Positions 8,861-59,449 of a stretch of 64,000 bases of DNA are shown one piece after another. The number at the start of each line of letters is the position of its first letter. Position 1 is the first letter of the stretch. A program made the translations under genes and the position numbers. Location of the stretch: NCBI RefSeq assembly GCF_043290135.1, contig NC_134709.1:108740145-108804144 (forward strand), read 5' to 3'. The notes below the pieces were generated by a model, which was given only the letters and a program-made list of their open reading frames with translations, was not told the DNA's origin and did not search any database. The stretch comes from Rhipicephalus microplus (taxonomy: Eukaryota; Arthropoda; Arachnida; Ixodida; Ixodidae).

Positions 8861-9166
8861 TTGCATTCATCGGATCGACGCTACCAATATCGGGTATTTC
8901 TTAATGCTCGCGCTGAAATTGCCCATGTGCGTTCTCGTAGTTCCTGGGTAGATACTAATTGTCCATCCCCTGTGGCACATAGACGCATACCAGTGCCACA
9001 TACCCCGCACTCTGGTGGGAAGTGTTTGACAACGTACGCGACGGAATTGCGACATTATCAATGACTTGGCCAGCGCGTCATATGCGTCTAACCATCTTAC
9101 CCTCCCATACTAATTTGGTTCACGCCAAGTTAAGGGGGTGACAACGAGAGCACCCAAACGTAAGCG

Positions 9167-9574
<408 letters not shown>

Positions 9575-9609
9575 CCCTCAAAGTCACCGAAGTTCACTAA
9601 GAAATGCTT

Positions 9610-18985: not shown

Positions 18986-19904
18986 GATAGCACTCGTACG
19001 CCGTCCAGCAGTCACGTACGCAACTTTCATTCCTTTGCGATCCCGTCACAAGCGTTTGTGTCACCCTTTTGGTACCGCAATCCGCACTTGACGAGCTGTC
19101 AAGCTTTTTCTTTGTGTTTTTGCGAAGCAACCGACTCATTTTATCGAGCCTTACTTAGCACAAGCTTAGAGGGAGCAGCGCTGCTGAAGCGCGGTTGAGA
19201 GCGGAGTCCACAAACTGACGTCACACGCGAGAGGGCGCCCCTCCAAGATCTCGAGGCCAATAGTGCGCGCCATTCATGCTTCACTATACTGACAGGCATG
19301 CACATCTGGTTTGGCAGCACTGCCGATCCCACTTTTGGTAGAGTTCTTGATTGTTCTCTTGTTCAGGCACGCTGATGGGTTGAAAATGGTTGTCGGCGTA
19401 GGTATTCCTTGGTCATTTCACTTTTACTTCCTTTCAGTTCTCTTTTATTTCACTCCAGTTGGAATATGATAACTAGAACAGAGACGACAAGTCGGGCTGT
19501 AAAGGGATCGCGCTGTGCTTCCAAACCACTGGATAGGCGCGCCTGTCAGGAGCCATGGCTCGACTGCGCTCCCTGTACCGTATCATTTTTTTATGAACAC
19601 GTGAGGAATACGTGAGCGCATGGCATGAGCACTCCAGCGTCTACTTGCAACGCGCTCAAGCGGGAGCGAGAGCAACCAGACTTTAAACTAATTTTATTTA
19701 TTTATTTATTTATCACATACTGCGGACCAAGTATGGTCCATGCAGGAGAGGGCAATACAGTACAAAATTCTTCTACATACATACACTTCCGCTGCAGTAT
19801 ACATTCACTGCAGAACAAAATTCATGTACATTAAAAACTCATGAAAAACAAAGGACAAATACAGGCAAAGAAGCAGACTTAAGCAACAAAAAAAGGGTAT
19901 AGTT

Positions 19905-22652
19905 TCATCTCGGCGTGTTGAGCATAGGGGAATCATGGGGCAGAGCATTCCAATCAGAGACAGTTCTCGGGAAAAATGAATACTTGTAAATGTTAGTGCG
20001 TGCAAATATAGGTGTAATGCTACGACTATGTTTATGACGTGAAGACCTGGTTGTGTCCTGTGTTATGTAATCTGGTGCGTGCAATCCTGATCTGGAAAAG
20101 TATAAAAGGCGGAAAAAGTTAAGCCGTGCAGTTTTCCTTCGATCGGCCAAAAGTTGGAGGTTCGCATCCTGCAACAGGGCTGACGGCGAATCGCGATATC
20201 TATACCGGTTGTATATAAATCGAGCAGCTAATCGTTGTATTTTTTCTATTTTCTGTATATTACCAGCTGTGTGGGGGTCCCACACAATGCTGGCATATTC
20301 AAGAGAAGGACGAACTATGACTTTATAGGCTCTAAGTTTTAGTGAACTAGAAGAACGACCCAATTTATATTTTAGAAAGCCTAATTTTCTCCTGGCAGCA
20401 GAACATATATCATCAATATGTGCTGTCCAGGTAAGCTTCGATGTAATCGTTACGCCCAAGTACTTGAATTCTTCTACTTGCCTGATAGCGTATCCACCTA
20501 CATTATAAGTAAACTCCAGTTTTCGGATTTTGTTACTCAGACATAAATATACAGTTTTCTCAAAATTAATTACCATTTCCCACTTTTTACACCATTCTTT
20601 TATGTAGATTAAGTTCTCACACAAGTCATGCTGGTCAGAGATAGAATTTATGGTATTAAAAATTATGCAATCGTCTGCAAATAACTTAACAGACACGCCA
20701 GGTCGGATGGCTTGAACTAAATCGTTAATATAAATATTAAATAGTATAGGCCCGAGAACTGACCCTTGCGGGACTCCAGATAACACCCCCAAATACCCAG
20801 AGGTGAAACCGTTTATATCTACGAACTGTTTTCTGTTCGTTAAGTATGCTATGACCCAGTTAATTATTTCCGGAGGAATGCCAATAACCTTCATCTTATC
20901 TATTAGCTTGATATGCGGGACCTTGTCGAAGGCCTTGGAAAAGTCCATAAAGATGACATCAACCTGTCCAGACTTGTCCAGAACTTTGGAGAACTCGTTA
21001 ACAGTTGCTAATAATTGTGTGGTGGTAGATAATCCCCGTCGGAAGCCATGTTGCGCGCTGTGAATTACTTTATTTTGTTCAAGAAAAGTATTTAAATATT
21101 TCGCTATAATATGTTCAAGTAATTTGCAACAAATACAGGTAAGGGAGATTGGTCGATAATTACTGACTAATAATCTGTTGCCTTTCTTAAATACCGGAAT
21201 TACACGTGCTAGCAGCCAATCGTCGGGCACTGAACTAGTTTTAATCGAAACATCAAATATTATTACTAGGAATCTAGCTATAATTTCAGCATACCTCTTT
21301 AGAAAAACAGCTGGGATACCGTCAGGGCCGGTCGATTTTTTTACGTCTAGCCGCAATAATAGTTCTGTCACCCCTTCCAAGGATATATTTATTAGGCTTG
21401 AAGGACCTGGCACCGTCATAATACTCAAGTTTTGTGGTCTTGAGAAAACGCTCTGAAAGTAGGAATTAAATGCGTTTGCTATTTCGTTTTTATTTGTGAC
21501 AGTGGTTTCTCCGTTCATTATTTCATCAGGGATACGGTTGTCTTTGTTTTGCAAGAACTGGTAAAATTTTCGTGGACTCTCTGCCGCAAAGCGGCCTAGT
21601 GTCTCGGTGTAATAATGTTCCCTAGCCTCCTTCAACTTGGATGCTAAAGTATCTCTTAGATCGTGCAGAACTACATCATTAGCTATTTTTTGCTTTCTAC
21701 GCCTTTTAATTTTGCGTTTTAGGTGAATTAGATCGCGCGTTATCCAGGGGTTTGTACGGCCAACTTTTTTAAGTTTATCTGGAACGAAATTGCGAATGCA
21801 GAAGTGGCAATAAAATTTGAATTGTGTCCATAGCGAGTTAACACTGCCGTCGCAAAATGATAGCAAAGCTTCTTCTAGGTAGTGAACAATCTGGAAATCG
21901 TCTGCAGCAGAATACTGTTTTACAACTACGGGCTCAGGTCTAGATGACCTTGTTCTACGTGGTAAAGAACAATTGAAATTGACCAATTTGTGATCAGAAA
22001 TGCCATCTAAAACTGTTGCCATACAGGATTCAAAACTTGAGGAACAGAAAACGAGATCTAGTATTGAAGAAGCTGAACTTGTCACGCGCGTAGGATCAAG
22101 AACTGTTTGCGTAAGGGAGTAAGCAAGCGACATGTCTAGTAATATTTCAGCACTCTGCACATCAATAGAACCACATTTCATCGATTCCCAATGTATGCCT
22201 GGCATATTAAAATCACCTGCAATAATAATGTTTTGATTTCGGTATTTTTCTAAGTGCTCGTACAGGTCTATCAAGAAAGCCGGTGGGGCGCCAGGGGGCC
22301 TATAGACTCCCGCAATAATAATAGGGTTACCAGCAATTACAGCTTTACAAAAAACACTTTCGTGGCAGCTATTAATATCAGGCAAGGAAACGGACGATAC
22401 CTCGCGTTTAACAAGGATAGCAACTCCGCCCCCTCTTGTTTGACGATCTTTCCGATAACATGTGTGTGAAGGAGGAAATATGCAATTATCTGGAATTCGA
22501 GGGTGCAACCATGTCTCCGATATTACTGCTACGTGTGGGTCGTAAGAAAGCAAAAGGTGCTCGAGTTGCTCTTGCTTGTTGCATACACTTTGTGCATTCA
22601 GGCACAGCAATCGGAAAGCCTTTTGCGCATGCTCAGTTTTATTTTGGGTTTG
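19905..22652 (-). CDS. Retrotransposon ORF2: APE-type endonuclease and reverse transcriptase
   Basis: This enzyme nicks the target and primes cDNA synthesis. Numbering is from the TTG at 22610, where LCLNAQSV begins. The endonuclease spans about 1-225 with SETWL (31-35), GGGVAI (60-65), VYRPP (102-106), GDFN (132-135), LDLVF (184-188) and the catalytic SDH (215-217). The RT follows with TGPDGIP, YRPISLT, MDFSKAFDKV (motif A), GVPQGSVLGP (motif B) and FADDC (motif C, codons at 20681-20670), and a thumb/C-terminal part ending near SFFPRTVSDWNALP. There is no in-frame ATG before the endonuclease core. From the ORF1 UGA at 22655-22653 the frame is open and starts QTQNKTEHAQ. Expression by UGA readthrough, reinitiation or a non-AUG start is therefore likely. 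Confidence 0.9.
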   Translation of the reverse strand, partial: QTQNKTEHAQKAFRLLCLNAQSVCNKQEQLEHLLLSYDPHVAVISETWLHPRIPDNCIFPPSHTCYRKDRQTRGGGVAILVKREVSSVSLPDINSCHESVFCKAVIAGNPIIIAGVYRPPGAPPAFLIDLYEHLEKYRNQNIIIAGDFNMPGIHWESMKCGSIDVQSAEILLDMSLAYSLTQTVLDPTRVTSSASSILDLVFCSSSFESCMATVLDGISDHKLVNFNCSLPRRTRSSRPEPVVVKQYSAADDFQIVHYLEEALLSFCDGSVNSLWTQFKFYCHFCIRNFVPDKLKKVGRTNPWITRDLIHLKRKIKRRRKQKIANDVVLHDLRDTLASKLKEAREHYYTETLGRFAAESPRKFYQFLQNKDNRIPDEIMNGETTVTNKNEIANAFNSYFQSVFSRPQNLSIMTVPGPSSLINISLEGVTELLLRLDVKKSTGPDGIPAVFLKRYAEIIARFLVIIFDVSIKTSSVPDDWLLARVIPVFKKGNRLLVSNYRPISLTCICCKLLEHIIAKYLNTFLEQNKVIHSAQHGFRRGLSTTTQLLATVNEFSKVLDKSGQVDVIFMDFSKAFDKVPHIKLIDKMKVIGIPPEIINWVIAYLTNRKQFVDINGFTSGYLGVLSGVPQGSVLGPILFNIYINDLVQAIRPGVSVKLFADDCIIFNTINSISDQHDLCENLIYIKEWCKKWEMVINFEKTVYLCLSNKIRKLEFTYNVGGYAIRQVEEFKYLGVTITSKLTWTAHIDDICSAARRKLGFLKYKLGRSSSSLKLRAYKVIVRPSLEYASIVWDPHTAGNIQKIEKIQRLAARFIYNRYRYRDSPSALLQDANLQLLADRRKTARLNFFRLLYFSRSGLHAPDYITQDTTRSSRHKHSRSITPIFARTNIYKYSFFPRTVSDWNALPHDSPMLNTPR

Positions 22653-22655
22653 TCA
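22653..22655 (-). promoter_or_regulatory. Single UGA (UGA-C context) between in-frame ORF1 and ORF2
   Basis: The minus strand reads GAA AAA TGA CAA ACC CAA AAT AAA. Both ORFs are in the same frame (24338 and 22610 differ by a multiple of 3), and this is the only stop between 24338 and 19905. UGA followed by C is the leakiest tetranucleotide for readthrough in eukaryotes. The downstream CAA ACC is not one of the best-known stimulatory contexts. A recent mutation creating the stop cannot be excluded. Confidence 0.7.
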
Positions 22656-24338
22656 TTTTTCCGCGCGGGAAGACTTACGTAGAAACACCCTGCGACCAGC
22701 TGTGTCGTCCCACCCATAAACGTTATCGTTTAGAAACAACTTGTCATGCACCAATTGCATCTTATCACCAGTACGCTTGTCCTGTAATCCAGATTGCCAC
22801 AACTTATTTCTTATGCGCTGTGTGGCTTGAGAATAATCGTGGGAGATTGACACTTCAGAACCTTTGAGCTTTGGGCAGTTCCTGAACAATTCCATTTTTT
22901 CGTTGTAGTCGTACAGCCGAAGGATAACTGGCCTGTGGCGGTCTTGTCGCAGCCTTCCTATTCGGTGAATTCGTTCTACAGACCTGACGGAAACACCAAG
23001 TGTTTCGCCGAAAACCTTACGCAAAACCTTATCCTCTAGATCCTGCCTAGTTTCTTTTGGTGCCTCAGGAATTCCGAAGACGACTACATTGTTTCTGCGT
23101 GAACGATTTTCATAATCATTCAGTCTCCGGTCCTGCTCAGCCAAAGCCTTCTCCAACCGCTGTACTGTTCCTTCCAGCTTCTGTATCTTTTCTTCATTTT
23201 CCTTCGATATTTTCAGAACCTCGTCTAGTTTTGACAGCTTCGCATTTACCTCAGAAAGTGTGGCATCGCGCTTTGTGTCCGCTTCCTTTAGCTCTTTTAA
23301 CTGAAGCATAATATCCTTCAACATTTGTTCTATCTCGGGACCAGGGTTACTTTCCACATCGCCACATAAAAGGAGCAGAAAAACAGACCAGCAATCTATG
23401 ACAACATGAATACATCTTTGAGGGCACGGCAGCACTATAACAGTGTATGAACTTGAACGAAATCCAGAAAGCGTGTTGTAAAAACTGACCTGCACAACAA
23501 GCCAAGCAGAATCAAACATGCTGCTCCGACGAGTGCCGCCGTGCCCTCTGAGAGGACAGGGCTCGACCGGAGACTTTATATCCTGTATGGTCGACGTCAC
23601 CGAGTTGTGCAGCCAATTCGGTGTCCCGTCCGCTGAGTCGATGAAAAGATGATCAGTCCGTGCAGGCGTTTTCCACTTGTGCGATAAATCGGCAGTCCAC
23701 AGCGCAGGCCCAGAATGAGCGGGTTGTTCGGCACATGGCAGCGGTCGGATCAAAAATACAACCTGCACAACAAGCCAAGCAGAATCAAACATGCTGCTCC
23801 GACGAGTGCCGCCGTGCCCTCTGAGAGGACAGGGCTCGACCGGAGACTTTATATCCTGTATGGTCGACGTCACCGAGTTGTGCAGCCAATTCGGTGTCCC
23901 GTCCGCTGAGTCGATGAAAAGATGATCAGTCCGTGCAGGCGTTTTCCACTTGTGCGATAAATCGGCAGTCCACAGCGCAGGCCCAGAATGAGCGGGTTGT
24001 TCGGCACATGGCAGCGGTCGGATCAAAAATACAACCTGCACAACAAGCCAAGCAGAATCAAACATGCTGCTCCGACGAGTGCCGCCGTGCCCTCTGAGAG
24101 GACAGGGCTCGACCGGAGACTTTATATCCTGTATGGTCGACGTCACCGAGTTGTGCAGCCAATTCGGTGTCCCGTCCGCTGAGTCGATGAAAAGATGATC
24201 AGTCCGTGCAGGCGTTTTCCACTTGTGCGATAAATCGGCAGTCCACAGCGCAGGCCCAGAATGAGCGGGTTGTTCGGCACATGGCAGCGGTCGGATCAAA
24301 AATACAACCTGCACAACAAGCCAAGCAGAATCAAACAT
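22653..24338 (-). CDS. Retrotransposon ORF1: 2A-like leader, coiled coil, RRM-like nucleic-acid-binding protein
   Basis: ORF1 proteins of this type bind element RNA and act as nucleic-acid chaperones. The longest frame is 561 codons. The first 273 residues are three copies of the 91-residue monomer translation, so the most likely natural start is the ATG at 23519, giving 288 residues. In that form residues 1-61 are a leader with a hydrophobic run (VIDCWSVFLLLLC) ending in the 2A motif DVESNPGP (codons at 23360-23337). Skipping would separate the leader from the rest between the last Gly and Pro. Then follow a heptad-rich coiled coil (long-form residues about 335-413) and an RRM-like segment starting RRNNVVVFGIPE (about 413-500), as in L1 ORF1p/Transposase_22-type proteins. 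It ends at a UGA followed by C, with ORF2 continuing in the same frame. Confidence 0.88.
   Translation of the reverse strand: MFDSAWLVVQVVFLIRPLPCAEQPAHSGPALWTADLSHKWKTPARTDHLFIDSADGTPNWLHNSVTSTIQDIKSPVEPCPLRGHGGTRRSSMFDSAWLVVQVVFLIRPLPCAEQPAHSGPALWTADLSHKWKTPARTDHLFIDSADGTPNWLHNSVTSTIQDIKSPVEPCPLRGHGGTRRSSMFDSAWLVVQVVFLIRPLPCAEQPAHSGPALWTADLSHKWKTPARTDHLFIDSADGTPNWLHNSVTSTIQDIKSPVEPCPLRGHGGTRRSSMFDSAWLVVQVSFYNTLSGFRSSSYTVIVLPCPQRCIHVVIDCWSVFLLLLCGDVESNPGPEIEQMLKDIMLQLKELKEADTKRDATLSEVNAKLSKLDEVLKISKENEEKIQKLEGTVQRLEKALAEQDRRLNDYENRSRRNNVVVFGIPEAPKETRQDLEDKVLRKVFGETLGVSVRSVERIHRIGRLRQDRHRPVILRLYDYNEKMELFRNCPKLKGSEVSISHDYSQATQRIRNKLWQSGLQDKRTGDKMQLVHDKLFLNDNVYGWDDTAGRRVFLRKSSRAEK
23337..23360 (-). 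promoter_or_regulatory. 2A-like translational recoding motif (DVESNPGP)
   Basis: Codons GAT GTG GAA AGT AAC CCT GGT CCC encode DVESNPGP, an exact match to the consensus D(V/I)ExNPGP. It is preceded by LLLLCG, the leucine-rich context usual for active 2A sequences. In known cases the ribosome fails to form the Gly-Pro bond and continues, releasing two proteins. Such motifs are described near the N-terminus of ORF1 in CR1/L2-type elements of several invertebrates. Activity here is inferred. Confidence 0.85.
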
Positions 24339-24367
24339 GCTGCTCCGACGAGTGCCGCCGTGCCCTC
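23488..24367 (-). repeat. 273-bp tandem monomers at the retrotransposon 5' end
   Basis: Complete units lie at 23488-23760, 23761-24033 and 24034-24306, with a partial unit at 24307-24367. Spacing is exactly 273 bp throughout and the units appear identical. 273 is 91 codons, and the ORF1 frame stays open through every unit. Each unit carries an in-frame ATG (MFDSAWLVVQV). By analogy with mouse L1 monomers, these are likely promoter/5' UTR units that happen to be translatable. Confidence 0.93.
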
Positions 24368-26473
24368 AGGTCTAGAGCCTCTTTTCGGGTCATCTATAGT
24401 GGCGAGCATAACAACCCGTCTTTGGTGATATGAAAACCGCGGCAAGGTTGCGACCTCCTTCAAGGCGATAATGCAAGAGGTCCGGCCCGGCCGCCGGTTA
24501 GATATCACCAATGACTGGTTCTTTAGCTCACCAGTGGGTGACGAGAAATAAAGCTATGGTTACTTTCGTTCCCGTTCGAACTCGTTGCAAGCAGCCATGT
24601 GCGCACGTGGCTGACACCTACCACATGGTAAGGTCATGTCAGCTCAACACTTCTTCACCCCCGAACCGAAATCCAACTAGAGGGTACTGGGAGCCGGCCC
24701 TGATTGGTTTGCCAGAGTCTTCTGGGCCTGACACGCCATGGTCTGGCGTGCCAGGACAGCGGCCACGACCAATGGTGTACCTGACTAGGGACTTCACCTT
24801 GTACTATAAGTGAGCTGACCCACTAGGGGCTTGTTTTTTTTTTGCAACCTCTCTCTTTTTAATAAGTGTTTACCACCACCGCCACCGGAGCGTGCAGGCC
24901 ACGCACTCACGTGTTCCCGTTCACAAAAATGAACTCTGTACCTTTGCCGATGACTCATCTACGCGCTCCGCTGTTCGTGTTTCATTTAACACCGATAGCG
25001 CCTGACTTGCTATTTTTCTTTCTTTCAACCGCATTGTGCAATGCTTCCTCCTCACGCTTTCCTTTCTCCATACCGCAAACTGGACCTTCATTCACGCGCT
25101 CATCAGAGCGATACGCTTCTGTACACCTTCAGGCAACGACAACGGCCGCGTCTGAAACAACTTGAAACGAAGAGCCCGCTCAATAAATGATAAGACTGCC
25201 ATAACGAAAAAATTGAAGGACGCGTGAGCGTCATCTCCAAGAGTGGAACGCGATAGCGTAATCGGCCCCGTGCGATCACCTTCTCAATCGCTCTAGCCTT
25301 AGCTTCGGTTCTCGGTGATTGTTCACGCAGTGCCTTAAGGAAACGAATGTCAGCGTACGTAACGTTGGTTGGCCGTTTAGAGCTATGCTAGCAAGTCTAC
25401 AACCGTTGCGCAGTGCCCACTGCACCGTATACCTCTTTATTTTCCGAGACAGCGAATGGCGCGTGCCAATACGCGTCCGTAAGACAACGTGCGAACGAAC
25501 GTAGTACCTAACTTTGCTGGCGCTTTTGCCGCTGTTAGTGATTAATGTGCCCGAGCGATTTGTAAGACACCCATCCTTGCGCAGTTGACATGTCTTGACG
25601 CCTGACGCGATTGTATGCTTCTGTCACGCAATATTAGATGAGTTACAGAGGCTCCTCCCGCAACATGACATTTACGTAGTTTTACACGCGAATGCATTTC
25701 TTAGTCGGGCTATGATCCGGCGTTGTCCGCGGCAGCGTCCACGTTCCGGCAGGTGTTATTTCCCATAGCAACAACGGCGGGGGCGCACGCTTATCTTCAC
25801 CTTTAAAGGGCAATTCCGACGCATTTTCACCCACACCGAGATAATGCTGTTTTCTGATAGTATTGACAGTCCTGAAAAATCTAGGGTGGTTCATTTCGCC
25901 CAGGCACTCGTCATTATTTTAGTTATGCAAGAAACGACGAGTCAAAACAGAAATCAAAACAGGGAGCAGCTCTGCCGTCAATGGTGGATATCTAATGACG
26001 TCACAAGATATCATTGCCGATGACGTCACGAGATCCACTACACCCCACCACGACTGGCCAAGGTGTAAATACAGCTCAGGTGCCTCGATTTTCTGATGCG
26101 CGAAAAGCAAGTTGGCGATGAAGCTGACAAAATTTAACTTTGCTCGCGTTGCCGTCACCTCGTTGAAGAAAGCGTGCGCTGCATCCGTCTGCTGGGAAAG
26201 GCAGGGTTTTCGAAAAAAAGAGTAGTCCCTGACGTCATATACATAGAGTGGCCCACATTTACAAGTGTGATTCCAAAATCAGCTACAAATTTTAAAATTT
26301 GTTTTCTGAAAAAGTAAATGATTTGTGGTTCTATATTTTGGCGCATATCACCACGGTACCAACGCGAACACACTTTCAAAGTTTAATTGAAATCGGTGAA
26401 TATATATTAAAAAAAACAACGCGGAGTTCTCCTTCACCACCCGGATTATGTGGTGTGAGAGAGCGTAGCAGAG
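24368..26473. other. Unassigned repeat-rich DNA
   Basis: No gene is supported. 24980-25005 resembles the repeat at 18985-19000. 25800-26420 has several TGACGTCA/ACGTCA motifs and looks like an old interspersed repeat, but I cannot assign its family. Confidence 0.3.
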
Positions 26474-28719: not shown

Positions 28720-29530
28720 GGACGCACCGGAAGCCATGAACTTTTCCATGAGCGCGGATATTTGTCTTTGCATGTGTGCAACCTGTTTAACTGCACAGCG
28801 CAAGACCGAATTAACGGAACAGAACAGACGCAGAACATTGTGTTGTTGTTTTTCTTATTGTGGCCCCGTACAAGCTGTCTAGGCTTTTGAAGGTCGCTTA
28901 TCCACCGACTGCGGAAGGGCAAGGTTGCATCAAGCAGCAGAAAAACTTGTTTTGGAAGTGCCTGTCAGATTCTTTTTTCATGTGGAAAATGCTACGTTCC
29001 ACAGCTGGAGCTTCATCTGGATGACCGAACGTGGAGAGCGAAACGTGAAAGGACTTGGCGCTTGGGTGAGCTCTCTGCATGTGAAATGAACGAATGGCAG
29101 GCCCGCCGCGAACAGGCACAACGACAGTACCACACGCTCGATCACTGAAGCTGCAAAAAAAAAAAAAACAAATCTCTGTGCGTAAGCAGCTGACCACGTA
29201 ACCTCATCCCCGTCAGGCAAAAAACTTACAAGACTAGAAGGTGCATCTTTTAACGCCCCACTCATTTCGCCATTGACGATGTACGATGTCTGGTGTGATT
29301 CCATGCTTGTGCCACGCAATATTAGAAGCCTGCCTAGGTTTTAAGCCCTTTGGGAGTCCGGGCTGTCGTATGATGTCGTATGCACTGTGGCCTATACAGT
29401 TGTCGTCGCTTTTCGGAACGCAGTAGAAAGCACATTATAGCATTACCAGTTTTAGCATCTCGGGCACGCGCTCGCGCCAGGGTGAAGGCCTTCTTCATCC
29501 TGTTCTTCAAACGCCTTGATGATGATGATA
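28720..29530. other. Unassigned DNA
   Basis: No gene or repeat recognised. The minus ORF at 28978-29319 has no domain. Confidence 0.3.
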
Positions 29531-29532
29531 AA

Positions 29533-30888
29533 CAGTCTAGAGCAGTTGCAGTGAATTCTGGAGTTCCCCAGGGGAGCGTGCTGGGTCCCCTTTTATTTTT
29601 GTTATATATAAATGACCTACCAAACCGCGTTACGGTCCCGATAAGGTTGTTTGCCGATGACTGTGTTGTTTATAGCAGAATCGAGACTGAACATGACCAA
29701 GTTAATCTAAACAACAATCTTCAAAGAATAAAGGATTGGTGCGAAGAATGGCAAATGAGTTTGAACACAGAAAAAACAGTCTTTATGACTATAACTAGAA
29801 AGAAAGCACCTCTAGATTACAACTACCAGATTGGCAATGCTTTCCTCAAGCGTGTACAAAACTATAAATATCTTGGGTTATGGTTCACGCCCGACCTCCG
29901 GTGGAACACTCATATTGATAATGTATGCTCCAGGGCTACCAAGGCACTGTATAGCCTTAGACGTAACCTTTATACCGCCCAATCTGATATAAAGTGTCTT
30001 GCTTACAAAACTCTTGTCAGACCTATTATCGAATATTCTAAAATTGTCTGGGACCCTTACACAAAGACAAACTGCAATAAAATAACAAAAATACAGCGAC
30101 TTGGTGCGAGATTTATTTTTAATAAATATCGCCGACATCATTCTCCTACTGAACTCTGTAAAAAAGCTGGACTGGATAGTCCTGAACTTAGGACGAGGAT
30201 TGAGCGTCTGAAATTCCTCTTCCAGTTAATTCATAATCATTTTAAACTAAACTATTCAGATTCAACGATTGTTTTCTGCTCAATTTTTATGTACCCACCC
30301 CTTATGTAATGCCCTGCAAGGGGTCTTTAAGGAAATAAAATGAAATGAAATGAAATGAAATTACTTCCAGGTCAACACACAAGAACACTCCAGACATCGC
30401 CATAATATGTATATACCACCCCTAGTCCCACGTAACGATTGCTTTAAGTTCAGTTACTTTCCACGTGCTATTGAAGATTGGAATATGCTGCCAGAGTCTA
30501 TAATTGGTTGTTCCTCGCTTACATCATTTGAACAGAATCTAAAACGTTTATTTTCCGAATAACAGTGACATATGTTTTTTTTTTTTTGCGTGTGTGTGTA
30601 CTTTTTGTTGGTTGCATGATTCTGCAGTAGTTGTCTTTCAAATCTTCAGCGCGGTGCAAAAGTGCCGCCTCAAATGCGTCATGTGCTGTTCTGCGCGTAT
30701 GTATTGCATCGCATGTGTGTTCCATTTATGTATGTTATGTATAACTTCGAGTTGCTGGTCACAATAATACCGAGAAATTATCTCGAGACCTGTACGGTAC
30801 TTCTTTTTTGCAAATAATTGTTTGTACTTCCACCCTGTAACGGCCCACTTCTGGGCTAACAGTATAAATAAATGAAATGAAATGAAAT
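29533..30888 (+). pseudogene. 5'-truncated CR1/L2-type LINE, 3' half of the reverse transcriptase
   Basis: The coding remnant starts just before motif B (GVPQGSVLGPLLF, from about 29558) and contains FADDC and a YLGLWF segment. The C-terminal block RFIFNKYRRHHSPTEL is also present. The frame continues to about 30275, is broken by a short inserted retroposon end, and resumes at about 30363 with FPRAIEDWNMLPESI to a TAA at 30560-30562. The 3' UTR ends in AATAAATGAAATGAAATGAAAT (about 30867-30888), a microsatellite tail typical of this group. Upstream of about 29533 the sequence is unrelated. The Met near 29380 is therefore not a real start. Confidence 0.85.
30278..30360 (+). mobile_element. Very short retroposon 3' end nested in the LINE
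   Basis: A piece of about 80 bp ending AAATAAAATGAAATGAAATGAAATGAAA splits the RT C-terminus. It contains CCCTGCAAGGGG-type stem sequence, and its GAAAT tail resembles that of the host LINE. It is probably a severely 5'-truncated copy of a related LINE. The boundaries are approximate. Confidence 0.6.
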
Positions 30889-43709: not shown

Positions 43710-44480
43710 GTACACTTCTTGCCTTCGAATGTTTTCATGACCCATTCATACCCTGGAACTTGTGCCAGTTGCAATGACCTTCCCCATGACTTCGCTGACA
43801 TAAGACTGGTGTTTGTGAAGCTGGTGAAACGGCCGCGAGCGCATCATGAGCATGGCTTAATTTGTAGTCATGGTCTTACATGACGCGCATGTCCCGCCAC
43901 GGTGGTCTAGTGACTAAGGTAACCGGCTGTTGACCCGCAGGTTATTGGGATCGAATCCCGGCTGCGGCGGTTGCATTTTCAATGGAGGCGAAATGGCTGT
44001 AGGCCCGTGCGACCAGATTTGGGTGTTCGTCAAAGAAACCCAGGTGGTCGAAATTGCTCGAGCCCTCCACTATGGCGCCTCTTGTAATCATATGGTGGTT
44101 TTGGAACGTTAAACCCCACATATCATTTACATGACACGCACCTCATGATTATCATGTTTGCACCAGTCATACCTTCGTAATCCAGTGACGTCACGTAACA
44201 CCAAATTCGGAATATGCGAAGCTAGGGAACGACTGCGAGCGTGGCATGTAGTGATGCCATGCATGTCATGATTTGCACGTTAGGGTCTGTCACTTACGTT
44301 CGCCATGCAGTCATGTCATGTCATACCAGCAACATCATAAAATGCAATCATGACATACAATATGTCATGATTTTCATGTTATGAATAGTCACATTAAGCT
44401 CGTCGTACACTAATGTTACGTCATACCAATTTTGGTATTGATACCATAAACGAAACGGTCAGGAGAATTGAAAGTCGTAG
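43710..44480 (-). repeat. About 150-bp CATGA-rich tandem repeats (composite element, copy ii)
   Basis: Reverse-complement units contain GCTCATGATGCGCTCGCGGCCGTTTC, ACCAAATTCGG and GGTGCAAACATGATAATCATG. They are related to 48100-48443 and 51315-52440. The GATA array follows immediately on the right. A Ruka (43890-44126) is inserted in it. Confidence 0.7.
43890..44126 (+). mobile_element. Ruka SINE, full length, diverged
   Basis: Head CCCGCCACGGTGGTCTAGTG, B-box-like GGATCGAATCC, body and tail TTAAACCCCACATATCA. It is flanked by TTACATGACGCGCA (43876-43889) and TTACATGACACGCA (44127-44140), 13 of 14 identical. It is inserted in the satellite-like repeat. Confidence 0.92.
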
Positions 44481-44485
44481 GCGGC

Positions 44486-45011
<526 letters not shown>

Positions 45012-45254
45012 CGCTCAATGTCGCCACAGATCGCTAAGAAATGTTTCGGACTTAAAATCAGTTGCTCATGTAGAATAAGTCGACTTATTGACCACACGCG
45101 CTGAGCATGTTCTGAGCGCGTGCGGTAAGCACGAAAAAGTAATTCTGGCAAACATTAAATATCTGAGCCAGGCAGTGAGCAAGTTGGCTGTTTGATGTTC
45201 GGAAGAATCAGAAAGCAAACTCACGAGTTGAAATTGACCGCTGCTGAAAGTTTG

Positions 45255-48443: not shown

Positions 48444-51314
48444 TAGGGTTGTTCGTTTTCGGGTAAAACCCGATTTTACCCGATTCTTGCACCCCGAACA
48501 AGTTTCAGGAGAATCGGGTTAAACCCGATTTCTCCCCAAATAAACCTCCTTGTAGCGATCTGCACAATCGTGAGTTGCTGCTAACTCGTGTTGATGCTCT
48601 TCCCCTTCTCTTCTCACCACTACCTGTCTCCTTGGTCACCCCTTTCTCCTCTCTAATCTTTACATCCCCTCTCTCCTCTGCACGCACATGCGTGAAAGCG
48701 TACATGCACCCCCCCCCCCCCTAAAAAATGCTTGCAGAAGAAAGTGGGAAACACGTTTGAGGCCGGTCACGCTTCGAGTACATTGTGAACAAATTTAGGG
48801 TGAAAGAAAAGGAAAGAGATCTGCCCCTTTGCCCACTGCAGATTAGTCTCGGGTATGTGCACCTGCTTCCAAGAATTTCACGCGGAAGGGACGGGTGACC
48901 AGTCGGTGGGGGAGAGATTGAGCGACGAAGAAGCCAGCCATACCCTCCCCCAGCGTCCAACAGAGGGTGTTGGTCCAACCCCGCGCGAACGCCCCTCACT
49001 CTCTCGCGCGACACGAGACGAGACGCATATCGCCATCCTCACTTAGCATTACCAGGCGCGTCTTGTGAGCGCAAAGCCACCGTCGCGGACATAAGGCGGC
49101 ACCGGAAACTTCAGCGTGGAGATGGGAAGAAAACGAAAGACACTGGATGACAGGTGTAAAGAACATGAAGATCTCCAGATCGCAACGAAAGACAGTGAAG
49201 GCACCCGCACTTTAGTGTGCAAATATTGCAACACCGAGATGGTCACCGATACAGCGAAGAAGCCCTACGACCGAGTTCGTGAGCATCTAATGTCATCTCG
49301 TCATAAGAAGTTCAAGACGGCTTCCAAGGAAGCTGAGACTGCGGGAACGTCTCAGCAGACGCTTTTTGATATGTCCTGTAGACAGCGTGCGAAAGAAACT
49401 GAAGCGGACGGCGTTATTTATGACTTTGTTCGTGCCCTAGCGTACAGCGGAATAAGCATGCACCAGGCGGACGGACCGCTGGGAGACTTCGCACGCAAAT
49501 ACTGCAAGGCCGCGAAGACCATGCCAACAGGACAAAGACTTCGGCTGAAATACCTGAAAGAAGCTTTTGACAAGGACATGGAGAAAATCCGCGATGATAT
49601 GCGAGATGTGAAAGTGAGCGTCATCGTCGATGAATCCCCAGACATCACTGGTGTGCCTACCATCAACACTCTCCTGTGCTACTATAGCCAGAAAAACGTG
49701 AAGAAGCACGTTGTTCTGGTCGACGTCGACAGGGTAACTGCATCGAACAGTTACACGGTGGCAAGCGCAGTTAGCAAGGCACTCCTGACGGTTGGCAAGA
49801 CGTGGAAAGACGTTGTGGCAGTAGCCACAGACTTAGCGGAGTACATGCGAAAGATGGTTCGAGAAATCTGTCAGGCTGAAGGGATCCAAATCTTGCATGT
49901 GAAAGATATAGCACACCTTATTCATGTGAGTGTTGACCATGCCATTTCTTTACCATGCATGTCTGATGTTCGATCCGTAGTGATCAAGTTTGGAGCGTTA
50001 TTTAAGCACGCTAACAAGCTTTACCAAAAGTACACTAAAATTTGTTCTTCTAATGGCCTCTTTGGGCCTGACATTAAGAAGCCACCTTCTGTTGTCCCGA
50101 ATTGATGGCAAAGCTTCTACAAGGCACTTGTGGTAGTCGTAGAAATGTGGAGTTCGTTAACAGAACTTGCTGAAAGCTCGCATGATAGCAGCAAAGCTGA
50201 AGCTATTCGAGGGATACTTTCTGAAAAAGAAGTTGTTTATGCGAAGGCAATCTTGATGAGAGATGCACTCGGCCCACTTTTGGAAGCCCAGAAAACGCTT
50301 GAAAGTGGGAAGCTTTTGATGCCCAGCTTTGATCACCTGGTAAACGTGAAGCTGCAGCAGATTGTCGGGGAGCTTTCGGCGATGATCGGTAAAACCGATC
50401 AGGCCAAAGCTGTTTTGTCTATGTTACCCAAGCGCAGCGCTAATTTAGTAAAAACATGTTCTGAAGAGTTCTGCACGAAACTCGCCACAAAATGGTGCTG
50501 CACTCTTGGACGGAACGTCTCAGAAAAAGAGGAAAACCAGCTAACTTTGTGGAAGTTGGGAGCCGTCCTTGATCCGTTTCAGAAGCGTCTGCTGGGGCAG
50601 TCATTTGAGGACTACCGACCTCTGTTCATGTCCGTAACTGACAATGTAGATTCCCTTAATGACGAGTTCAACCAGTATTTGCTGGAAGCGAGCCCCACAA
50701 ACCCAGCTGTCGAACTAATCGAGTATTGGCATGAATCTACTTCTCGCTACCCAAGACTTGCAAAAGCTGCACTGACATTGTTGTGCCTAGCTAATGGTAG
50801 CTGTGACGTGGAGAGAACTTTCTCCCAGCTGAGATATGTTCAACGACCGGACAGATCTCGAATTGAGACTGACATGTTGCGCATGCAGATGATAATGTAT
50901 GTCAACAAGGACGTGTGAAAAATCGATGACTAGATTTTCGAGAATAAAATGTATAATTTCTAAGAGTCAATGTTTACTGATTCATTCATTTTCAAACACC
51001 ACTGATTCATTTTCAAACAAACACAAAATTTCGGGTAGTATACTGTATTTGCTGTAATACTCGGGTGTCTGTCCCAATTACCAGCTTGAAACACCAAATT
51101 CAACGTGTTATACTTAAAAAGCCCGTGATACGTTATGATAAGCTCAGTGTAAGTTCTGATAAGTACAACCGTATATTTAACCCGAAAAAACCCGAAGTAA
51201 GGAATGGTTTCGCAAAAAAACCGATTTTTCCCCGAATATCAGTTTGAAAAATACCGCCCGATTTTTACCCCCCGAATTTGAAAAAAATATAAAACCCGAA
51301 AACGAACAACCCTG
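48444..51314 (+). mobile_element. hAT DNA transposon, near-intact, with TIRs and target duplication
   Basis: Exact 20-bp terminal inverted repeats (AGGGTTGTTCGTTTTCGGGT at 48445-48464, its reverse complement at 51294-51313) carry an outer T/G. They are flanked by ATATACC on both sides (48437-48443 and 51315-51321), compatible with the 8-bp hAT duplication with one base changed. Subterminal AACCCGATTT/ACCCGAA motifs repeat at both ends. Removing the element rejoins the host repeat as GCTAGCGTCACATATACCAAATTCGG (two halves). The transposase gene lies inside at 49116-50918. Confidence 0.93.
49116..50918 (+). pseudogene. hAT transposase (BED zinc finger, about 600 aa) with one in-frame TGA
   Basis: A cut-and-paste transposase. 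Residues 33-61 form a BED-type zinc finger (Cys33, Cys36, His55, His61), with a preceding segment reminiscent of CGGBP1-like proteins, which are hAT-derived. The catalytic core has VIVDESPDI (first Asp), VAVATDLAEYM (probable second Asp) and HLIHV. The C-terminal dimerisation region is present as YPRLAKAAL and CDVERTFSQL. The frame is interrupted once, by TGA at 50103-50105 after SVVPN. The following codons (WQSFYKAL) continue in the same frame to the stop at 50916-50918. No frameshift was seen. The single TGA suggests recent inactivation; a short intron spanning it or readthrough cannot be excluded. Confidence 0.88.
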
Positions 51315-58907: not shown

Positions 58908-59449
58908 TCACTCCACAAAAAAGACATTCACATCGAGATGTTCGATCTTGTGTCTCTCCAGATAGTACTCCATGAGCGTCGTGTACGGGCACTGGTCGCA
59001 CTTGAAGGGTTTCTTGCCAGTGTGGCTACTACACATGTGCTTCTGCAGCATACGCTGCGTTGCAAATGTCTTCGGGCAAAGGTCGCACTTCACTTTCTTC
59101 CACGTGTGGGATTCCTCGTGATCCTTCAGCGTACTCGGGTAACGCGTCGCAAAAGGGCACAAACTGCAAAGCAGGAGAGGGTTTTCTTCGCGGCTGGGTA
59201 GTTCGAGTCTCTGGACAGGCAACTCCATGGCGGGCCCTTCCTTCAGCTCCACCTGCATGAAGTCCTCGATGGATGCTTCCAAGTCTACTCCATCGTTCTT
59301 GACAGGCACATTGGGTTCTTGCTGCTCCTCGGTGCAAAAGTGTTCGCTTCGCCCTGCATCTTGCAACGCGTCCGTGCTCTGGTTGCACTCAGCTGGCAGC
59401 GACTTTGAATATGCGCACATCTCGGAGTCGTCAGGAATCAGGAACTCAT
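58908..59449 (-). CDS. C2H2 zinc-finger protein, last coding exon (three fingers)
   Basis: A probable nuclear DNA-binding transcription regulator. The exon starts after a strong acceptor (minus CTTGCTCTGCAG, AG at 59451-59450) in phase 1 and reads (D)EFLIPDDSEMC. The Met at 59420 is thus internal, not the start. Numbering from that Met, fingers are Cys85/Cys88...His101/His105, Cys112/Cys115...His128/His133 and Cys141/Cys144...His157/His161. They are joined by TWKKV and TGKKPF linkers; the second is close to the TGEKPF consensus. An acidic Glu/Asp-rich stretch (about 30-80) precedes them. The protein ends HLDVNVFFVE. Earlier exons must lie upstream in the intron or beyond the window. Confidence 0.82.

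Follow-up and report, generated by a model that had tools for sequence, protein, structure and literature searches.

A tick non-LTR retrotransposon with tandem promoter monomers, a 2A motif, ORF1 and ORF2 in one reading frame, a candidate for ribosome skipping and stop readthrough

The minus strand of a 64,000-nucleotide stretch of the Rhipicephalus microplus genome (hereafter the window) carries a non-LTR retrotransposon in which promoter monomers, a leader, a 2A motif, ORF1, one stop codon and ORF2 follow one another in a single reading frame. Judging from comparison of copies and homologues, we consider it likely that this one-frame element uses StopGo at the 2A motif together with readthrough of the stop. 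Transcription would start at the initiator of one tandem promoter monomer, and the first AUG, about 30 nt 3' of the start, would fall in the ORF1 frame whatever the monomer number, a layout that is shown in the sequence. The 2A/StopGo motif, by its sequence, context and conservation, would split a variable hydrophobic leader from a constant ORF1 protein (ORF1p) starting with Pro. A minority of ribosomes would pass the UGA-C or UAG-C stop, and the resulting ORF1-ORF2 fusion would supply the endonuclease and reverse transcriptase. A wider proposal, which we find evenly poised between right and wrong, is that the tick group consists of single-frame polyprotein elements with two recodings, where tandem promoters would have been selected for in-frame translation, the 2A motif would hide promoter copy number from ORF1p, and a CAG boundary suggests that new units were spliced to a short segment, segment A.

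Element layout and the 2A motif

An earlier note, made from the letters of the window, had described a 2A motif in an RNA-binding-type ORF1 of a tick retrotransposon. The tick retrotransposon was borne out: the element is of the APE-type non-LTR class, and every named protein among the 39 homologues returned by the first ORF1 search is from a tick. Its features, from 5' to 3' along the element, are as follows.

19695..24367, minus strand, whole non-LTR element (21-copy comparison; 3' end set at 19695, inside an (AATA)n-type tail)
24095..24367, minus strand, promoter monomer 1 (273 bp), with the first ATG at 24338-24336 (repeat and 5'-end comparison)
23822..24094, minus strand, promoter monomer 2, identical (repeat comparison)
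23549..23821, minus strand, promoter monomer 3, identical (repeat comparison)
23592..23599, minus strand, TGACGTCG, which we take to be a CRE-like element, of the last promoter (sequence)
23574..23580, minus strand, TATAAAG, at -31 from the initiator (sequence)
23546..23551, minus strand, initiator-like TCAGAG with predicted +1 at 23549 (5' ends of 13 of 21 copies)
23490..23519, minus strand, segment A, an ATG and hydrophobic codons ending in CAG (MFDSAWLVVQ), present in every monomer (sequence)
23484..23492, minus strand, splice-donor-like CAG/GTCAGT at the end of segment A, cut after CAG (leaders and families compared)
23361..23489, minus strand, conserved leader (QVS...VLPCP..C...DCWSVFLLLLCG; ORF1 homologue alignment)
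23337..23360, minus strand, 2A/StopGo octapeptide DVESNPGP (motif search, homologues, family copies and published classes)
22656..23339, minus strand, ORF1p after the 2A motif, with coiled coil, RRM and C-terminal domain (AlphaFold2 model, PDB match)
22650..22655, minus strand, UGA-CAA, the stop between ORF1 and ORF2 and candidate readthrough site (junction comparison)
22602..22652, minus strand, 17-codon AUG-free linker in the ORF1/ORF2 frame (junction comparison)
19905..about 22601-22610, minus strand, ORF2, APE-type endonuclease and reverse transcriptase (Pfam)

ORF2 matches PF03372, PF14529 and PF00078 (Exo_endo_phos, Exo_endo_phos_2 and RVT_1), and the Pfam search reported no RNase H domain in it. 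For ORF1 the same database gave weak matches only. An AlphaFold2 model of ORF1p built from 40 sequences has a mean pLDDT of 86.5, the top nine Foldseek matches in the PDB each being a chain of the human LINE-1 ORF1p trimer (best match 2yko, E 1.3e-9, with 18% identity over the aligned part). By this model ORF1p shares the fold of human LINE-1 ORF1p, which supports the RNA-binding type assigned to it earlier.

From its sequence the element is full-length and probably recently active. The lack of any difference between its three 273-bp monomers suggests that the copy is young, and the 3' tail is reached by 18 of the 21 copy alignments. Possible marks of target-primed insertion among the copies are AATTCA on both sides of one copy (L039), AATA-type tails and the 5' truncation of some copies; at the window copy no target duplication is evident. 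Inverted repeats of 38 nt, 79% complementary, flank the element at 19641-19678 and 24557-24594, and it may have been inserted into an older terminal-repeat element.

Several other features were seen in the window. Decayed reverse-transcriptase fragments related to ORF2 lie at 29515-30493 (plus strand, 45% identity in the best stretch) and 37367-35996 (minus strand, 32%). Fragments of a hAT-type transposase occupy 49116-50918 (plus strand), with a match to the C-terminal dimerisation domain and a DUF659 match below the cut-off. A C2H2 zinc-finger exon or gene fragment is found at 58908-59420 (minus strand), and long tetranucleotide-type arrays at 9120-9597 and 44459-45151 (minus strand) contain open frames that read as YLSI repeats.

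The octapeptide DVESNPGP is present exactly as previously described, with its strand corrected to minus (23360-23337); the translated plus strand of 23337-23519 has no D[VI]ExNPGP. The minus-strand frame around the motif reads ...SVFLLLLCGDVESNPGPEIEQML and ends at UGA 22655-22653, and the skip is predicted between Gly 23342-23340 and Pro 23339-23337. This final Pro is residue 61 counted from the ATG at 23519, in agreement with the position first given. That ATG is the last of four equivalent ATGs, and the frame stays open 5' to the ATG at 24338 through the three identical 273-bp tandem units (561 codons). The leucine-rich hydrophobic segment said to come before the motif is also found, as LLLLCG preceding D. 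Compared by eye with section 10 of a 2026 StopGo survey (PMC12846837), this hexapeptide, combined with a D at p12 and an S at p15, agrees with the leucine-rich StopGo motifs 2/6; an example of leucine-rich class 6 is active according to that section. DVESNPGP is the only match to D[VI]ExNPGP across the six frames of the window, where 4e-5 would be expected by an estimate from residue composition. A chance motif is ruled out by this single match and by conservation in copies and homologues.

Conservation in related copies, by which the earlier note proposed that its claim be judged, is seen in both sets compared, with D[VI]ExNPGP kept in 36/42 tick-named ORF1 homologues and in 19/21 copies of the family. 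Six tick-named proteins do not match: the motif is absent, replaced or uncovered in P0032, P0062 and P0106, P0011 has DFESNPGP, P0021 ends NPGL, and P0003 starts inside the motif. The last is an R. microplus protein with 94% identity over 62% of ORF1. A profile search gave 108 ORF1 homologues among the best 7996 candidates, reaching a soft tick, gastropods and Hydra, and the gastropod homologues also have the 2A motif. In the 121 proteins from both searches, D[VI]ExNPGP occurs in 85 and NPGP in 90, the misses including proteins that start after the site. One ORF1 homologue, P0037, has two 2A motifs 55 residues apart. Two endonuclease-reverse transcriptase proteins, P0203 and P0224, have the 2A-like N-termini GDVQLKPGP and NDIQPNPGP, so that 2A-like motifs also precede ORF2-type proteins. 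Searches for related loci elsewhere, with the ORF1 alignment against viral and other genome contig collections and with ORF2 against genome contigs, found none.

Within the genome, the family comparison took in the window copy and, of the 22 matches next to it in rank, all except L019 and L020 (20 copies). The motif is DVESNPGP exactly in 18 of these 21 copies, and NPGP is present in all 21. One copy (L048) differs at the free position, and the two copies outside the pattern read DMESNPGP (L046) and DVGSNPGP (L047). A further copy (L042) has a stop directly before GDVESNPGP. The loci were grouped by stop context and linker into eight families (F1, F2, F2b, F3a, F3b, F3c, F4a and F4b); ORF1 of the window, which belongs to F1, is 59-60% identical to that of family F2.

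Promoter monomers and the leader

Every monomer has TGACGTCG, TATAAAG at -31, the initiator TCAGAG and an ATG at +31. The 5' ends of 13 of the 21 copies fall within one 4-nt phase window of the 273-bp unit (binomial p = 2.6e-19). These 13 initiator-start copies carry 1 to 5 monomers, and the other 8 copies begin elsewhere. The copy ends show indirectly that transcription starts at the initiator of one among several tandem monomers. In all 12 initiator-start copies that were scored (L044 was left out), the first ATG is in frame with the 2A motif and ORF1; the ORF1 core is reached without a stop in 10 of the 12, and in L042 and L045 an in-frame stop lies ahead of it.

The monomer period is 273 bp (91 codons) in F1 and F2, 270 bp in F2b, 240 bp in F3a, 237 bp in F3c, 234 bp in F4a and 240 bp in F4b, and is divisible by three in the seven families measured; the F3b copy has no monomer. 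The top-scoring period in F4b is 463, made up of 223 + 240, and the 223-bp unit is not a multiple of three. An ATG lies at +28 or +31, in frame, in 8/8 families, and a TATA-like site (TATAAA, TATAAG, CATAAA or TTAAAA) at -30 to -32 in 7/8, F3c having none. With periods divisible by three and a first AUG that shares the ORF1 frame, the leader could vary in length and the 2A motif would still release the same ORF1p. In-frame monomers also occur in homologous proteins from several tick genera, as recorded in protein databases that are biased to open frames; the window and 17 homologous proteins have in-frame monomer peptides of 78-107 residues. We found no coding promoter monomers in the open-licence papers searched.

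The short leader originally proposed holds if transcription begins in the last monomer; it does not hold for full-length transcripts, in which the first AUG is at least one 91-codon monomer upstream, in frame. By the substitution ratios the leader is under purifying selection (dN/dS between the window and F2 copies of 0.36 for L025 and 0.44 for L028). ORF1p gives a pN/pS of 0.29-0.30 between F1 and F2, with synonymous sites saturated. The hydrophobicity peak is the N-terminal 12-residue window in 18/18 monomer peptides, which are not independent since they share a related start, and the leader may act as a signal-like peptide. An enrichment of N-glycosylation sequons in the monomer peptides was considered and is not supported (12 seen, 9.4 expected).

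The end of segment A resembles a splice donor. A search for GTYRGT found it after CAG in 7/8 families and after TAG in the F3c copy. In 31/31 pattern-matched leaders, of 37 that are long enough, Q-V (in one case Q-I) is followed by S, G, R or C, residues that can all be encoded with a middle G. The site looks like a conserved splice donor. The boundary was compared in the window and copies L025 and L072-L078: segment A is followed by GTYRGT at the leader junction and by other sequence at the junction with the monomer body. The segment A match ends exactly at CAG in F3a, F4a and F4b, and 1-3 bases from it in F1, F2, F2b and F3c, where the next bases agree by chance. From this boundary, promoter units could have been captured by splicing.

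The ORF1-ORF2 junction and rival explanations

In the window ORF2 shares the frame of ORF1, and the first Met after the stop is residue 150, which we judge from the sequence to lie beyond the first endonuclease motifs. Three F2b copies have a Met inside the endonuclease motif LNMRS. ORF2 follows in the ORF1 frame after UGA-C or UAG-C in 8/8 families. The linkers are 17 codons long in F1 and F2, 16 in F2b, 5 in F3a, F3b and F3c, and 11 in F4a and F4b, and none contains an AUG. The first 70 residues of ORF2 are 40-76% identical among family representatives. As the families are related they are not independent, and the shared frame is partly inherited, yet their linker lengths differ by whole codons only. 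C after the stop is a leaky stop context. One stop taken for contrast, that of the window's own ORF2, reads UGA-A.

The last stop before ORF2 is UGA-CAA in 15 of the 19 F1 loci tabulated, the window included (L044 and L045 were left out). Of the exceptions, L041 and L046 have an extra UGA in the linker, the decayed L047 has UGA-AAA, and L042 gave no reading. Among the F2 loci L024-L030, UGA-CAU was found in 5/5 scored, L024 and L030 having no core match. Twenty more junctions (L051-L070) all have ORF2 in the ORF1 frame and a C directly after the last stop, the contexts being UGA-CUU, UAG-CUA, UGA-CAA, UGA-CAG and UGA-CAU. Exactly one in-frame stop per 420 nt occurs at 14 of these 20 junctions, and also in the window and the F2 representative, and extra in-frame stops occur at the other six (L052, L059, L062, L066, L067 and L069). 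Summed over the 20 stretches of 420 nt, the ORF1 frame has 27 stops versus 188 and 221 in the other two frames. F3c is represented by a single, decayed copy that has a TAG in segment A and, 18 codons upstream of its UAG, an additional TAA.

We regard programmed stop readthrough as the best reading of this junction, which makes the stop a candidate readthrough site. Folding of eight representatives, without pseudoknots, gave no stable RNA structure 3' of the stop (z -1.2 to 0.9), and structure-assisted readthrough is not supported by these scores. The N-termini of ORF2 homologues (120 listed of 1467) were uninformative as a guide to the start codon, some first residues being M where relatives differ, as if alternative starts had been so written. 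No stop readthrough in a LINE was found in the open-licence papers searched.

The main rival, which we nevertheless think unlikely, accepts that the 2A motif works and has ORF2 translated by reinitiation or from a non-AUG start immediately downstream of ORF1, in the manner of SART1 or LINE-1. A passage of PMC5972666 describes coupled termination-reinitiation in SART1 and gives it as a proposal for LINE-1, AUG-independent initiation of LINE-1 ORF2 is considered likely in section 13 of PMC5009743, and the absence of RNA structure after the stop in the eight representatives fits this route as well. Reinitiation, however, needs neither the same frame nor the stop-C, and both are found in 8/8 families across four linker lengths; nor do the linkers of any family offer an AUG. 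Production of ORF2 from a spliced RNA, joining the segment A donor (CAG then GTYRGT) to an acceptor near ORF2, is a weak rival and in our view very improbable. The donor-like site is conserved, and in F1 an AG at 22620/22619 would join in phase; this AG, however, has no preceding pyrimidine tract, and splicing would not require ORF1 and ORF2 to share a frame.

Two further rivals concern the upstream part of the element. It might be that the open monomer frame is accidental and that translation of ORF1p normally begins at the last ATG alone, which we rate as rather improbable. A dinucleotide-shuffled monomer is open in the given frame in 324/5000 trials, so one family alone proves little and it is agreement across families that carries the argument. 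The stop in 2 of the 12 scored copies and the 223-bp unit of F4b are also consistent with an accidental frame; against it stand the monomer periods divisible by three in seven families and the in-frame monomers in homologues of other tick genera. Least probable of all, we think, is that the 2A motif is a fossil without function in the tick host. The changed motifs in some copies (DMESNPGP in L046, DVGSNPGP in L047) would suit such a fossil, but the motif is retained between tick genera whose ORF1s are about 40% identical, and between F1 (window) and F2 the octamer has changed at synonymous sites only (pS 0.56, pN 0). StopGo combined with readthrough in a one-frame element is the reading that we prefer.

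Comparison with known systems

In murine leukaemia virus, gag-pol is made by UAG readthrough with a stimulatory pseudoknot, according to part of PMC5009743. The tick element resembles the virus, as described there, in that the enzyme frame is in phase after the stop, and differs in being a LINE and in having no structure after the stop by folding. The N-terminal 2A leader of a sea urchin NLR comprises a signal sequence and a recoding site, both of which were measured, as given in part of Roulston et al. 2016 (PMC4981915). The likeness to the account in that part is a hydrophobic N-terminal leader ending in a 2A motif, the tick leader being known from sequence alone. ORF1p has the coiled coil, RRM and C-terminal domain in common with human LINE-1 ORF1p (2yko), and unlike the human protein is preceded by a leader and a 2A motif. 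L1Tc, an element of Trypanosoma cruzi, is the subject of Heras et al. 2006. L1Tc elements have one ORF, with no stop between ORF1 and ORF2, whereas the tick element has such a stop. Mouse L1 has tandem 5' promoter monomers. The tick element shares tandem 5' promoter units with it, but the tick units are multiples of three, open, and have an AUG in the ORF1 frame.

How the ratio of ORF1p to ORF2p is controlled in non-LTR elements is an open question, and a group in which the two proteins share a frame that is divided by a skip site and a stop-C would, if true, make it testable by ordinary reporters. The same layout would, if true, give a reason for a retrotransposon 2A motif, namely that ORF1p stays constant while the promoter repeat number varies freely between copies. 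It would be unusual for an element of this type to be expressed from one frame that holds promoters, leader and both proteins, and we find these surroundings of the 2A motif less usual than the motif itself.

Odon et al., a 2013 study cited in PMC12846837 and PMC11512398, reportedly found 2A-like sequences in APE-type non-LTR retrotransposons. We found no tick 2A element in the open-licence papers searched. A 2A motif near the N-terminus is already known in APE-type non-LTR elements, and a 2A motif is common to the elements of Odon et al. and the tick element. In the tick element the DNA of many copies also shows promoter monomers that keep the frame, and an ORF2 that follows a stop-C in the frame of ORF1.
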